Assembly (NCBI GenBank): GCA_945867185.1
Contig: CAMBHM010000040.1
Span: 1-10,096, forward strand
From: Legionella genomosp. 1
Lineage (GTDB): Bacteria; Pseudomonadota; Gammaproteobacteria; Legionellales; Legionellaceae
Direction: 5' to 3'
DNA: 10,096 nucleotides
Under the pieces are notes generated by a model, which was not told the origin of the DNA, did not search any database, and saw nothing but the letters and a program-made list of their open reading frames with translations. Shown piece after piece: positions 1 through 8,444 of the stretch (positions within the stretch are counted from its first letter, which is position 1; every line of letters begins with the position of its first letter). The position numbers and the translations under genes were made by a program.

Positions 1-148
1 CTAAAACAGCATCGAGCATTTGTCGATGTTGCCCTGTTACACACACTTTAGACTGAATATGTGGTGATGCTTCAAGTCGTTTGATGACGGGCGCCATTTT
101 GATGGCTTCAGGGCGTGTACCAAACACGCATAAGGTCTTTAATGACAT
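1..148 (-). CDS. wecB: UDP-N-acetylglucosamine 2-epimerase (non-hydrolysing), 5' part only
   Basis: The ATG at 148-146 opens a frame running off the left edge; 49 codons are present, reading [20 protein letters not shown] and continuing to [15 protein letters not shown]. The [12 protein letters not shown] block near residues 9-20 and the TGQHRQML block near residues 38-45 are hallmarks of the non-hydrolysing UDP-GlcNAc 2-epimerase family. These cytoplasmic enzymes interconvert UDP-GlcNAc and UDP-ManNAc, a precursor for enterobacterial common antigen, O-antigens and capsules. A GGA about 6 bases upstream (157-155) can serve as ribosome binding site. It is the first gene after an ops element, so it probably heads an RfaH-dependent operon extending left of the window. 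Roughly seven-eighths of the protein is missing because of the window edge, not because of a mutation. Confidence 0.93.
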
Positions 149-164
149 AACAAATCCGTTTGTA

Positions 165-180
165 GGCACGCTACCGCCCT
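165..180 (-). promoter_or_regulatory. ops element (RfaH recruitment site)
   Basis: Read on the minus strand, 180-165 is AGGGCGGTAGCGTGCC. It contains the complete GGCGGTAGCGTG core (178-167) known from enterobacterial rfb, waa and capsule operons, where paused RNA polymerase exposes it to recruit RfaH. It lies 16 bases before the wecB ATG and about 215 bases after the rfaH stop codon. The preceding bases (TTAAAATCCA) loosely resemble the downstream half of the JUMPstart element. I found no second copy of the core on either strand in the window. The match is seen directly; function is inferred from the adjacent rfaH homologue. Confidence 0.85.
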
Positions 181-330
181 TGGATTTTAAAAGGTCAATT
201 TCCAAAGAACGACTAGTGATATCAAGGTGGGAAAAAACTGCGATCTTCCCTGGGAGTTACTCTCTACATCAACATCTTGTAGCTGATAGCTTGTCTGCAA
301 AATCTATCGATGATGCAGGACGCCTGGACC

Positions 331-347
331 CCGTGAACAAGTCACGG
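331..347. repeat. REP-like hairpin in the rfaH-wecB gap
   Basis: CCGTGA at 331-336 pairs perfectly with TCACGG at 342-347 around a 5-base loop (ACAAG). On the minus-strand transcript two further G-U pairs are possible. The flanks (GGACC before, AACGTC after) resemble the REP-type palindromes common in gammaproteobacterial intergenic DNA, but only one copy is present here. It could also simply be a structure in the leader between rfaH and ops. Confidence 0.45.
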
Positions 348-362
348 AACGTCGAGACTAAA

Positions 363-375
363 GAGGGCGGCCCTC
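363..375 (-). terminator. weak hairpin after rfaH, possible attenuator or terminator
   Basis: GAGGG and CCCTC flank a 3-base loop, starting 18 bases after the rfaH stop codon. On the minus strand only TTT follows, so the U-tract is poor. If it terminates at all it is likely leaky, which would let some rfaH transcription continue into the ops leader of wecB. Confidence 0.3.
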
Positions 376-393
376 CATTCAGGCTGTATCTCA

Positions 394-888
394 CTACCCT
401 GCCACTGCATACACGGGCAGCTCAACGTGCTGTTCACGGTTAAATAAGTTAATCAATAGGCAAACGCGCTCTTCGCCTGTTGTGGCAGTGACCATGGCTT
501 CTATGTCTTTAAAGCATCCTTCCGTAATCAAGACTCGTTGACCTGGTGTAAACAGGGGTTCAGCCGCCTTACCGTGCAGACGTTCGCATTGACGCTGGAT
601 GCCCTCGACGATATTGTGGGAAAGACTTGCTGGGACGCCATTAAAATAAACGATTCGACTGACGCCACGCGTTGATCGAATGGTGGACCAATTCTCTGTG
701 GAGTCTAGTAAGATAAACAAATAATGAGGAAACAAGGGCGCTATGACAGCATGGATACTGCCAGCTATTTTTCGTTTTACAGGATAGGTCGGGTGAAAAC
801 AACGATACCCTTGATTATTTAAATTCGCTTCAGCTCGAAAGCTTTCTCGTGGTTTGCATTGCACTAAATACCATCGTCCATCGGTCAC
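394..888 (-). CDS. rfaH: RfaH-type transcription antiterminator (specialised NusG paralogue)
   Basis: This 164-residue protein has the length of E. coli RfaH (162). The N-terminal NGN domain (about 5-100) begins WYLVQCKPRE, and contains LFPHYLF (52-58) and STRGVSRIVYFNG (72-84). A KOW-type C-terminal domain (about 113-164) carries GQRVLITEGCFKDIEA. RfaH binds RNA polymerase paused at ops, suppresses pausing and Rho termination, and couples ribosomes to long polysaccharide operons. By my alignment K12, R18, T73 and R74 match ops-contacting K10, R16, T72 and R73 of E. coli RfaH, whereas His20 is replaced by N22. The start is GTG at 888-886, preceded by AGGGGG (903-898) with a 9-base spacer; there is no better start. 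An ops element lies just downstream in front of wecB. Ordinary NusG is excluded by the RfaH-like TRGVS and ITEG blocks and the context. Confidence 0.92.
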   Translation of the reverse strand: MTDGRWYLVQCKPRESFRAEANLNNQGYRCFHPTYPVKRKIAGSIHAVIAPLFPHYLFILLDSTENWSTIRSTRGVSRIVYFNGVPASLSHNIVEGIQRQCERLHGKAAEPLFTPGQRVLITEGCFKDIEAMVTATTGEERVCLLINLFNREQHVELPVYAVAG

Positions 889-988: not shown

Positions 989-1017
989 AGTCTACGACAG
1001 ACATTTGAGATTGTCTA
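989..1017 (-). promoter_or_regulatory. candidate sigma70 promoter for rfaH
   Basis: On the minus strand TAGACA (1017-1012; five of six against TTGACA) is separated by exactly 17 bases from TAGACT (994-989; four of six against TATAAT). It starts 3 bases after the lipA stop codon and would give a leader of about 95 bases before the rfaH GTG. This would separate rfaH from the lipA run. The call rests on pattern matching only. Confidence 0.4.
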
Positions 1018-4872: not shown

Positions 4873-5646
4873 ATGCTGAGCACACTTTGGAATTATCGTC
4901 ATTTTATAAATGGCGCTGTCAAACGCGAGTTGCAATCTCAATATAGTAAATCCTTGCTGGGTACTGCGTGGATCATCATGAATCCCTTGTATATGTGTAT
5001 CCTTTATTCCTCTATTTTTTCATCGCTGATGACACAAACCGTCAGTAAACAATCCTACACTATCTATCTCGCTGCGGGATTATTGGCCTGGAATTTTTTT
5101 ATTGATATTTTGAATCGCTCCCAAATCATCTATCCCGCTTACGCCACTATCATCAAACAACATCGCTTTCCCTTATTGTGTTTGTCAGTGATTGTCTTGA
5201 TTCTAGCCAGCCTTGATTTTTTTGTTTCTTTTGGGTTGTTTACGGGCTATTTAATAGCCACTCATGCGTTTCCTGGCTGGTGTTTCTTCGCCCTATTTCC
5301 CGTCTTGCTTCTCCAAGCAGCGTATGCACTGACATTAGGGACCCTGTTAGGGATCTTAAATCTCTTTTTTAGGGACATTGGAAAAGGTCTAACCCTCTTT
5401 CTACAACTATGGTTCTGGATGACCCCTATCGTCTACACCATACACCAAGTACCTGAAACACTGCAGATTTTGCTCTTCTACAATCCTCTCACCGCATTGA
5501 TGCGTGCTTATCAAACCATTTTAGTCGATCAAACATGGCCGATGTGGCACCCTTTGTTGTTTCCACTCTTCATCACGCTCTTCTTGATGGGATTTTTTTT
5601 ATGGCGTTACCGACAACATGCCATGGATATTTTGGATGAATTCTAA
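4873..5646 (+). CDS. wzm: ABC-2 type polysaccharide exporter permease (Wzm-like)
   Basis: This 257-residue inner-membrane protein matches the usual Wzm/KpsM length (about 260). An amphipathic N-terminus (YRHFINGAVKRELQSQYSKS) precedes LLGTAWIIMNPLYMCILYS, the typical opening of the ABC-2 transporter domain. About six hydrophobic segments follow, with NLFFRDIGKGL before the fifth and WFWMTPIVY and FYNPLTALMRAYQ near residues 175-215, all characteristic of the family. With its ATPase it moves undecaprenyl-diphosphate-linked glycan to the periplasm. An AAGGA site lies 9 bases upstream of the ATG, and the TAATG junction with wzt shows coupling. KpsM of capsule systems is the main alternative, but the long partner ATPase favours Wzm. 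Confidence 0.93.
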   Translation: MLSTLWNYRHFINGAVKRELQSQYSKSLLGTAWIIMNPLYMCILYSSIFSSLMTQTVSKQSYTIYLAAGLLAWNFFIDILNRSQIIYPAYATIIKQHRFPLLCLSVIVLILASLDFFVSFGLFTGYLIATHAFPGWCFFALFPVLLLQAAYALTLGTLLGILNLFFRDIGKGLTLFLQLWFWMTPIVYTIHQVPETLQILLFYNPLTALMRAYQTILVDQTWPMWHPLLFPLFITLFLMGFFLWRYRQHAMDILDEF

Positions 5647-6875
5647 TGCCAGCCATTGAAGTGACCCATGTGAGCAAAGCCTACAAACAGTATGCCTCGC
5701 TCAAAGGACAATTGGCAGAGTGGCTGCTTGGCGGTCTTAAAACCACCCATACTTTGAATTGGATCCTCTCTGACATCCATTTTTCTGTGAACCCTGGCGA
5801 AGCGGTGGGGATCGTCGGAATGAATGGGGCAGGCAAAAGTACCTTGCTAAAAATCATCACTGGCACCTCTTACCCAACGATAGGCAGTGTCACCACACAT
5901 GGCCGCGTCTGTGCCCTGCTCGAACTGGGTGTTGGTTTTCATCCTGACTGTACTGGGCGTCAAAATGCTGTAACCATCGGACAGCTTATGGGCTATAGCA
6001 CGGCAGACATCCGCCGCTTTCTTCCTACGATAGAAGCCTTTGCTGAAATAGGCCCCTATATCGATCGAGCGATCCGAGTCTATTCCAGCGGCATGAAAAT
6101 GCGTTTGGCATTCGCTATTGCTACCACTATGACGCCAGATGTGATGATTATTGATGAAGCCTTAACCGTTGGTGATGGCTATTTTCAACATAAATGCTTC
6201 AAGCGTATTCGTGAATTGCTTGCACAGGGCACGGCCCTACTCTTTGTCTCCCATGACAATACCGCGGTCACTGCTCTGTGTGATCGCGCACTCCTTTTAC
6301 ACCAAGGCAATATTGCCATGCAAGGACCTCCTGAGTCGGTGATGAATTATTACAAAGCCCTCTTGGCAGATTTTGAAGCCAAACAAATACAACACCACGC
6401 GCAGCCCAATGGAAAATTTCAAACCATTTCTGGTACCAAAGAAGCCTCTGTTCTGGAGGTTCAGCTGCTCAATGAGAACCAAGAGATCATAAAGAACGTT
6501 TCTGTCGGCGACATGGTCACGCTTAAAATCTTAGTGCTTGCAGCCGTAGCATTATCTGATTTAACGATTGGTTATGAAATAAAAGATGTATTCGGACAAC
6601 CCATTTTTGGGACCAATACGCACCATTTAGACCATCCTCTCACGCACATTGCGAGCCAAGAGATTCTGGACTATCGGTTTCGATTCGCAGCCAATCTGGG
6701 AATAGGAGAGTACTCTATTTCTGTAGCCTTGCATTCATCTTATGATCATTTAGAGAAAAATTATGAATGGCGAGATTTGGCGTTGACATTTAGCGTGACC
6801 AACAGGGATAAGGCTTCTTTTCTGGGTACTTCATGGTTGCCGCCGTTGCTAGAATGCACCAGACATCGCACGTGA
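5646..6875 (+). CDS. wzt: polysaccharide ABC transporter ATPase with C-terminal glycan-binding domain (Wzt-like)
   Basis: The 409-residue protein has an N-terminal ATPase of about 235 residues with Walker A GMNGAGKS (58-65), ABC signature YSSGM (146-150), Walker B DVMIIDEA (165-172) and switch VSHD (201-204). LLELGVGFHPDCTGRQN (91-107) is typical of the Wzt/TagH branch. Residues about 265-395 form a predicted beta-rich domain (VLEVQLLNENQEII, then VSVGDMVTL, YEIKDVFGQPIFGTNT and LGIGEYSISVAL) matching Wzt_C (PF14524). In E. coli O9a this domain binds the modified non-reducing end of the finished O-chain before export. Its presence implies a glycan terminated by a capping group, but no capping enzyme lies in the window. 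Its start shares one base with the wzm stop. Its last 27 bases overlap the convergent GT4 gene. Confidence 0.94.
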   Translation: MPAIEVTHVSKAYKQYASLKGQLAEWLLGGLKTTHTLNWILSDIHFSVNPGEAVGIVGMNGAGKSTLLKIITGTSYPTIGSVTTHGRVCALLELGVGFHPDCTGRQNAVTIGQLMGYSTADIRRFLPTIEAFAEIGPYIDRAIRVYSSGMKMRLAFAIATTMTPDVMIIDEALTVGDGYFQHKCFKRIRELLAQGTALLFVSHDNTAVTALCDRALLLHQGNIAMQGPPESVMNYYKALLADFEAKQIQHHAQPNGKFQTISGTKEASVLEVQLLNENQEIIKNVSVGDMVTLKILVLAAVALSDLTIGYEIKDVFGQPIFGTNTHHLDHPLTHIASQEILDYRFRFAANLGIGEYSISVALHSSYDHLEKNYEWRDLALTFSVTNRDKASFLGTSWLPPLLECTRHRT

Positions 6876-8331: not shown

Positions 8332-8444
8332 CTTGGTTTGACCGCAATCATCGTGTTGCTATCTTTAACTTGCTCATGCGAGCAATGCTCAAAATCGCAA
8401 GTCAACGATAGCAACACGATGATTGAAGCCACTTGTTTCAACCG
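8331..8444. repeat. imperfect 14-bp direct repeats bracketing the palindrome
   Basis: ACTTGGTTTGACCG (8331-8344) ends exactly at the left edge of the 81-bp palindrome. ACTTGTTTCAACCG (8431-8444) lies 5 bases past its right edge. They agree at 11 of 14 positions and are exactly 100 bases apart. They might be decayed insertion footprints, paired binding sites, or chance. Confidence 0.35.
8345..8425. repeat. 81-bp near-symmetric palindrome in a divergent intergenic region
   Basis: CAATCATCGTGTTGCTATC (8345-8363) is the perfect 19-bp reverse complement of 8407-8425. Inside, ACTTGC (8368-8373) pairs with GCAAGT (8397-8402), and the centre GAGC-AAT-GCTC (8380-8390) is symmetric about base 8385. 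An alternative small hairpin, TTGCTC-ATGC-GAGCAA (8370-8385), is possible. The whole unit could form a long interrupted hairpin or cruciform. It lies between the starts of the GT4 and permease genes, so transcript termination of either is unlikely. An operator, a miniature mobile element or a small structured RNA are possible. No known family was recognised. Confidence 0.85.

Follow-up and report, generated by a model that had tools for sequence, protein, structure and literature searches.

At the end of a Legionella genomosp. 1 contig (C40), in a 10,096-nucleotide stretch of DNA referred to here as the window, a gene for RfaH, a specialised NusG paralogue, is followed on the minus strand by a hairpin, a perfect ops element, and the start of a wecB-like gene (UDP-N-acetylglucosamine 2-epimerase). 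This arrangement, which recurs in relatives, is probably a cis-encoded RfaH-ops module at the head of a surface-polysaccharide operon, on which RfaH would act as it does in Escherichia coli. The genome assembly comprises 1.446 Mb in 207 contigs and is 76% complete.

The rfaH gene (394..888, minus strand) is an open reading frame (ORF) of 164 amino acids with a GTG start; its product scores 156.9 bits with the NCBIfam model TIGR01955, above the curated RfaH cut-off of 144.5, lies just below the cut-off of a second RfaH model (PRK09014; 121.8 against 124), and groups in a tree with the Legionellaceae RfaHs (11 rows, support 99/99). On the same strand, 215 nt after the end of rfaH, the ops element GGCGGTAGCGTG (167..178) is an exact match that reads towards wecB; it thus lies complete and correctly oriented between the two genes, as the original prediction had it. 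The probability of a single random copy in these 215 nt on the right strand is about 7e-5 by arithmetic, and the exact 12-mer has one copy in the 1.446 Mb of this 76%-complete genome. A spacer of 18 nt (149..166, minus strand, as read from the sequence), in which no strong Shine-Dalgarno sequence is seen (the best by eye is ACGGA), separates ops from the wecB-like gene (1..148, minus strand), which is indeed led by ops, although its ATG is found at 148 and not at 149, where it had been placed before. The contig end truncates this gene after its first 49 codons; in a profile scan they score 62.8 bits with TIGR00236 (model positions 1-47), which is below the full-length cut-off because of the truncation, and a search of the rest of the genome (E up to 0.001) found no further wecB piece. 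In E. coli, waaQ and rfb are reported to have no ribosome-binding site (PMC6358824).

Matches to the ops pattern GGCGGTAGNNTG with at most one mismatch occur at 48 places in the genome, two of them mismatch-free (the second at C96:3504-3515), against 91 for a reversed control pattern; near-matches are thus at background, and no wider ops regulon is claimed. The genome-wide scan by which the original prediction had hoped to list ops-led operons accordingly returned a single exact 12-mer and no such list.

Recurrence of ops downstream of rfaH

With the window RfaH as query, 69 related RfaH loci were fetched from the genome collection, covering Legionellaceae, Pseudomonadaceae, and some other Gammaproteobacteria; since they were chosen by similarity to the window RfaH and many are from close Pseudomonas, the counts that follow are not counts of independent events. 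The ops element (GGCGGTAGNNTG) lies downstream of rfaH on the same strand in 49 of the 69, within 1 kb in 48, within 250 nt in 45, and within 80 nt in 25, against about 0.016 matches within 250 nt expected for all 69 loci at even base composition; the median distance among the loci with ops within 1 kb is 79.5 nt, and gaps of the shortest type come to 43 nt in one Legionellaceae locus. In Azotobacter chroococcum DSM 2286 (L067), rfaH is followed after 90 nt by hairpin and ops. The adjacency of the regulator to a leader that had originally been pointed out is thus real and recurrent, with the adjoining operon as its presumed target. A tree of 71 proteins (the 69 loci, the window, and E. coli) explains the ops-linked label, given to the 48 loci with ops within 1 kb and to the window, with 8 changes, 5 of them forced by branches with strong support; shuffled labels require 18.8. 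Among the loci without GGCGGTAGNNTG, L062, L064, L070, and L112 carry the variant GGCGGTAGCGTA 72-144 nt after rfaH; it recurs beside rfaH in L155 as well, and this recurrence suggests that the final G of ops may be dispensable.

Where the contig is long enough, ops is followed in the relatives by long runs of genes on the same strand. The first ORF after ops encodes a phosphoglucose isomerase (L166), a Polysacc_synt_2 protein (L167), a UDP-sugar dehydrogenase (L173), a sugar epimerase or dehydratase (L171, L174), a DegT protein (L177), a low-molecular-weight phosphatase (L176), or an ABC transporter (L053); in L172, in which the first ORF falls outside the scan, a UDP-sugar dehydrogenase is a later one. 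In a set of 39 loci, mostly from Pseudomonas, the translation of the ORF after ops reads as rmlA-like in 13 and as wecB-like in L107.

A survey of 112 Legionellaceae genomes, which overlaps the set of 69 loci, combined a search for rfaH (E up to 1e-12) with a strictly filtered search for the hairpin-ops element, using a model (R1) built from some of the surveyed loci. It finds rfaH in 11 genomes and the R1 element also in 11, namely in 10 of the 11 with rfaH and in 1 of the 101 others (G116, a partial match of 27.6 bits over model positions 4-30 in a genome with no rfaH); by coordinates, the element directly follows an intact rfaH in 9 of the 11 rfaH genomes. The exact ops 12-mer is present in 20 of the 112 genomes, 10 of the 11 with rfaH and 10 of the 101 without. 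Beside its rfaH, G010 has the GGCGGTAGCGTA form (29.7 bits), and another of its contigs carries an exact ops copy. In G055 (L164 / L174, C39:1-20000), a hairpin, ops, and an apparent wecB remnant come after a second, truncated copy of rfaH, and the intact rfaH lies on another contig, without ops; in G113 (L163 / L170), a UDP-sugar dehydrogenase gene follows rfaH after a few dozen bases, with no ops, and this RfaH is possibly a cis-encoded one that lost its signal.

At class level, an RfaH relative is present in 61 of 274 genomes and, under strict filters, an R1 match in 10. Of the 61 RfaH loci, 40 were fetched with about 0.7 kb downstream, and exact GGCGGTAGNNTG is found in 4 of them; R1 scores 14.9-20.1 bits on these four sites, against 61.1 for the window, which is one of R1's own sequences, and they therefore have at best a poor hairpin. 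Adjacency as a rule for all RfaHs is thus rejected; adjacency with this hairpin is typical of some lineages, not of RfaH at large.

The hairpin abutting ops

In the window, an inverted-repeat test finds a hairpin (177..208, minus strand) that the original prediction had not included, with TCTTTGGA as its 5' arm (208-201) and TCCAAGGG as its 3' arm (184-177), the last two bases of which are G1 and G2 of ops. It reaches p 0.01 against 200 shuffles, and the minimum energy of the RNA drops from -4.2 kcal/mol for the segment that ends just ahead of ops to -10.6 kcal/mol when ops is included. Counted from the sequence, the base of the stem lies 11-12 nt upstream of U11 of ops, where pause hairpins lie; the ops-paused RNA is reported to end at U11 (PMC11001881), and hairpins 11-13 nt upstream of a pause have been proposed to inhibit backtracking (PMC10268239).

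The arms in Pseudomonas are typically CTCAGGA and TCCTGGG, so that the letters differ and the pairing is kept. Covariation was counted over an 8-bp helix in 40 leaders (309 cells; 500 shuffles), including those of E. coli rfb, wza, and waaQ, in a second alignment that keeps L075, L079, and L103, which MAFFT had shifted by one column, and excludes near-duplicate Pseudomonas leaders as well as L106 and L113, which are present in the first. Paired cells make up 95.8% (87.4% in shuffles), doubly changed cells number 27 (8.4), and the covariation score is 0.409 (0.259), all three values being unreached in the 500 shuffles; slid versions of the hairpin pair in 21-66% of cells. The support from single leaders is weak in L060, L071, L083, and L108 (p 0.36-0.81). 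L117 (G091, L117/L169) has two hairpin-ops elements 4.3 kb apart: one, with ops at 6600, follows rfaH, and the other, with ops at 10858, precedes an epimerase-like gene.

Among the E. coli leaders with ops or JUMPstart elements (rfb, wza, waaQ), which are served by a protein of the same family and share the identical ops 12-mer, those of rfb and waaQ can likewise form a hairpin overlapping G1 of ops, with weaker support (p 0.08 each), and that of wza only a weaker one (p 0.21); they differ in that the window regulator adjoins one detected target, the loop of its hairpin is longer, and the Rfam JUMPstart model is unmatched. This model (RF01707) gives no match in the window, either at the gathering score or at E up to 1, and none above the cut-off in 37 genomes (one in G002 falls below it, at 26.7 bits), the E. 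coli control being detected; at the gathering score there is also no match in the 12 relatives, out of the 69, to which the model was applied. In 2010, JUMPstart elements were described as containing a conserved stem-loop (PMC2864571). The hairpin reported here may work like a JUMPstart, and we do not file it as a member of the Rfam family.

Residues for ops contact and autoinhibition

The side chains that touch ops in E. coli RfaH are K10, H20, R23, and R73; R16 and T72 were compared alongside them. In the alignment, the window RfaH keeps K10, R16, T72, and R73, which bears out the earlier statement that the contact residues mostly match with His20 replaced by Asn, and which is to be completed by R23, also Asn. 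Replacing H20 or R73 by alanine made E. coli RfaH respond much less strongly to ops (PMC2871177). Asn occupies position 20 in 32 of the 49 ops-linked homologues, the window included, and therefore cannot be fatal to the use of ops; being the commoner residue beside a perfect ops, it gives little ground for the concern first attached to it, and its interpretation as a sign of altered specificity is rejected.

More telling are two substitutions at positions of autoinhibition that had gone unmentioned before: E48 is replaced by Ala and F130 by Val, R138 of the E48-R138 bridge being kept. The change E48A makes the autoinhibited state of E. coli RfaH less stable, and F130V is, with I93E, one of two changes reported to lock RfaH in its active form (PMC12168481). 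The window RfaH may have lost its autoinhibition. Within the Legionellaceae clade, Val130 is found in 11 of 11 proteins, and E48 is missing in 8 of 11; a link between cis-encoding and the loss of E48 and F130 in general is rejected, since the ops-linked loci outside this clade keep F130 in 39 of 39 and E48 in 34 of 39. AlphaFold (AF2), run without an E. coli control, models the C-terminal domain (CTD) as a beta-barrel in the window RfaH and also in L072, which keeps E48 and F130, and the model is thus non-discriminating. Mostly beta CTDs are reported from AF2 and three further methods for six proteins whose spectra resemble that of RfaH (PMC9247905); a preprint argues that such CTD fold predictions can be meaningful (PMC13015549).

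Mode of action, alternatives, and known systems

The likeliest explanation is a dedicated RfaH that acts on the adjoining operon, with which it is probably cotranscribed. RNA polymerase would transcribe the leader that directly follows rfaH (hairpin, ops, then wecB); at the U11 pause of ops, the nascent hairpin would form about 11-12 nt behind the RNA 3' end and limit backtracking, and by keeping the paused polymerase in register it may thus leave ops exposed; RfaH from the adjacent gene would bind the exposed ops in the non-template strand, stay on the polymerase, exclude NusG and Rho, and help ribosomes to load, so that the long operon would be transcribed to its end. The recruitment of RfaH at ops and its effect are proposed here by analogy with E. 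coli, for which recruitment, exclusion of NusG and Rho, and ribosome loading have been described (PMC5995543; PMC7593976; PMC7819879). Since ops lies after rfaH, any effect of RfaH would fall on the operon downstream, not on the rfaH gene itself, and the feed-forward unit of the original prediction is to be read with caution.

Cotranscription of rfaH and wecB, also envisaged there, is plausible, because relatives often leave too little room for a promoter between rfaH and ops and because the sole minus-strand promoter-like site in 1-1100 lies upstream of rfaH (989..1017, minus strand; weak, 9 of 12); the sites found in 1-1100 on both strands, three against 1.8 in shuffles, are no evidence by themselves. 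What speaks for it in the relatives holds less well for the window itself, whose own gap is 215 nt long and contains a weak hairpin after rfaH (363..375, minus strand: GAGGG-CCG-CCCTC, then TTT, with five G+C-rich pairs and a 3-nt loop). The two genes might instead be separate units, neighbours only because they travel as one locus, with rfaH ending at this hairpin, wecB starting from a promoter in the gap, and RfaH reaching ops in trans. The length of the gap would suffice for a promoter, the hairpin is G+C-rich, and the second ops of G091, 4.3 kb downstream, would be left unexplained by cotranscription with rfaH alone; however, the site scan lists neither promoter-like nor terminator-like minus-strand sites between rfaH and ops, so that the hairpin at 375-363, though present by eye as originally noted, is not among its terminators, and in many relatives the gap is 43-80 nt and largely taken up by the ops-abutting hairpin. 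We regard separate units as unlikely, if a serious alternative.

Lower still stands the proposal that the hairpin-ops RNA has a second job, for instance as a short leader RNA that titrates RfaH in the manner of E. coli RirA, which is 73 nt long, comes from the waaQ leader, binds RfaH via its ops (PMC6358824), and has an annotated span that covers the waaQ ops; it would be compatible with a dedicated, adjoining RfaH, and as no sign of a short transcript is seen here, it is improbable. A relic cassette, in which rfaH and ops persist but are inactive or act on a truncated operon, would fit the truncated rfaH copy, ops, and apparent wecB remnant of G055, and also the wecB-like gene cut off by the contig end in a genome that is 76% complete; the window rfaH is nevertheless intact and above its family cut-off, and its ops is perfect, which makes a relic very improbable.

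Several observations weigh against a cis-acting module all the same. The window's gap, longer than any other in its clade, leaves room for a promoter missed by the sigma-70 scan, and with wecB truncated only the head of its operon is visible. H20 and R23, two of the four side chains touching ops in E. coli, are both Asn. In the family survey, G113 has rfaH without the element, and G055 has the element beside the truncated copy and the intact rfaH without it; across the class, R1 lies beside rfaH, by coordinates, only in the window's genome (G000) and in G048. In L168 the first ORF after ops is nucleotidyltransferase-substrate-binding-like, and among the next ORFs of the 39 mostly Pseudomonas loci several are unlike polysaccharide genes. 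As for the hairpin, the two measures described as least misled by relatedness hardly exceed their shuffles, pairs changed on both sides numbering 4 (2.9 in shuffles, reached in 107 of 500) and further pair types 11 (9.6, reached in 73 of 500); because one state is common to entire clades, few of the compensatory changes are independent events.

In E. coli, RfaH works at a distance, and it is described as the trans-acting, monocistronic member among specialised NusG paralogues. Paralogues encoded in or beside the operon that they control are already established, namely UpxY of Bacteroides, TaA of Myxococcus, and LoaP (PMC7593976, PMC7819879), and rfaH genes near envelope genes have been reported for several clusters (PMC7593976). 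The window RfaH falls below the cut-offs of the UpxY model (NF033644; 65.8 against 100) and of LoaP (45.2 against 125), and thus belongs to a different family. A preprint of March 2026 proposes monomorphic, cis-encoded RfaH homologues that lack some ops-binding residues (PMC13015549); as in the window, their rfaH lies beside a lipopolysaccharide or polysaccharide operon, E48 is changed, and the AF2 model has a beta-barrel CTD, but the window RfaH keeps K10, R16, T72, and R73 and has a perfect ops with a hairpin beside its gene. The names Legionella and Pseudomonas do not occur in the main text of that preprint, and no description of rfaH-ops adjacency in either genus was met in the open full-text literature, subscription papers and supplements lying outside the search. 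What is new here is a variant of the RfaH/ops system that is cis-encoded, ops-addressed, and probably hairpin-assisted.

The RfaHs of these Legionellaceae and Pseudomonadaceae, which keep most of the residues for ops contact and whose genes stand immediately in front of a perfect ops, are what would be expected between the cis-acting NusG paralogues and the E. coli system. Tentatively, they could be a surviving intermediate: an RfaH acting beside its own gene, addressed to one ops, and not or only weakly autoinhibited, with specificity coming from gene position and a hairpin-latched ops pause and not from a fold switch. If true, this would separate the gain of ops recognition from the gain of autoinhibition and from the move to trans; the arrangement makes the order of these steps testable. 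The hairpin further suggests that pausing at natural ops sites may be helped by a hairpin; a structural study of 2024 sets the ops-paused complex apart from those stabilised by hairpins (PMC11001881). In practical terms, a hairpin and ops beside rfaH may help to locate the starts of polysaccharide operons in these groups.

Some minor features remain to be described. The rfaH-ops gap of the window contains a palindrome, CCGTGACTTGTTCACGGGGTCCAGG (323..347, minus strand), which by eye resembles the gap palindromes of L057 and L058; it was considered as a multicopy repeat and rejected, being single-copy in the genome at up to three mismatches. In Pseudomonas loci such as L093, L095, and L098, a G+C-rich hairpin without a T run is seen by eye between the rfaH stop and the ops hairpin. 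Elsewhere in the window, an ABC exporter pair of the O-antigen, capsule, or teichoic-acid type (under the curated cut-offs) is encoded at 4873-6875; with the glycosyltransferases nearby, it makes up a second polysaccharide region of this contig. A perfect 19-bp inverted repeat, found by eye at 8345-8363 and 8407-8425 near the starts of divergent ORFs at 8441 (minus) and 8477 (plus), is a possible operator or terminator.
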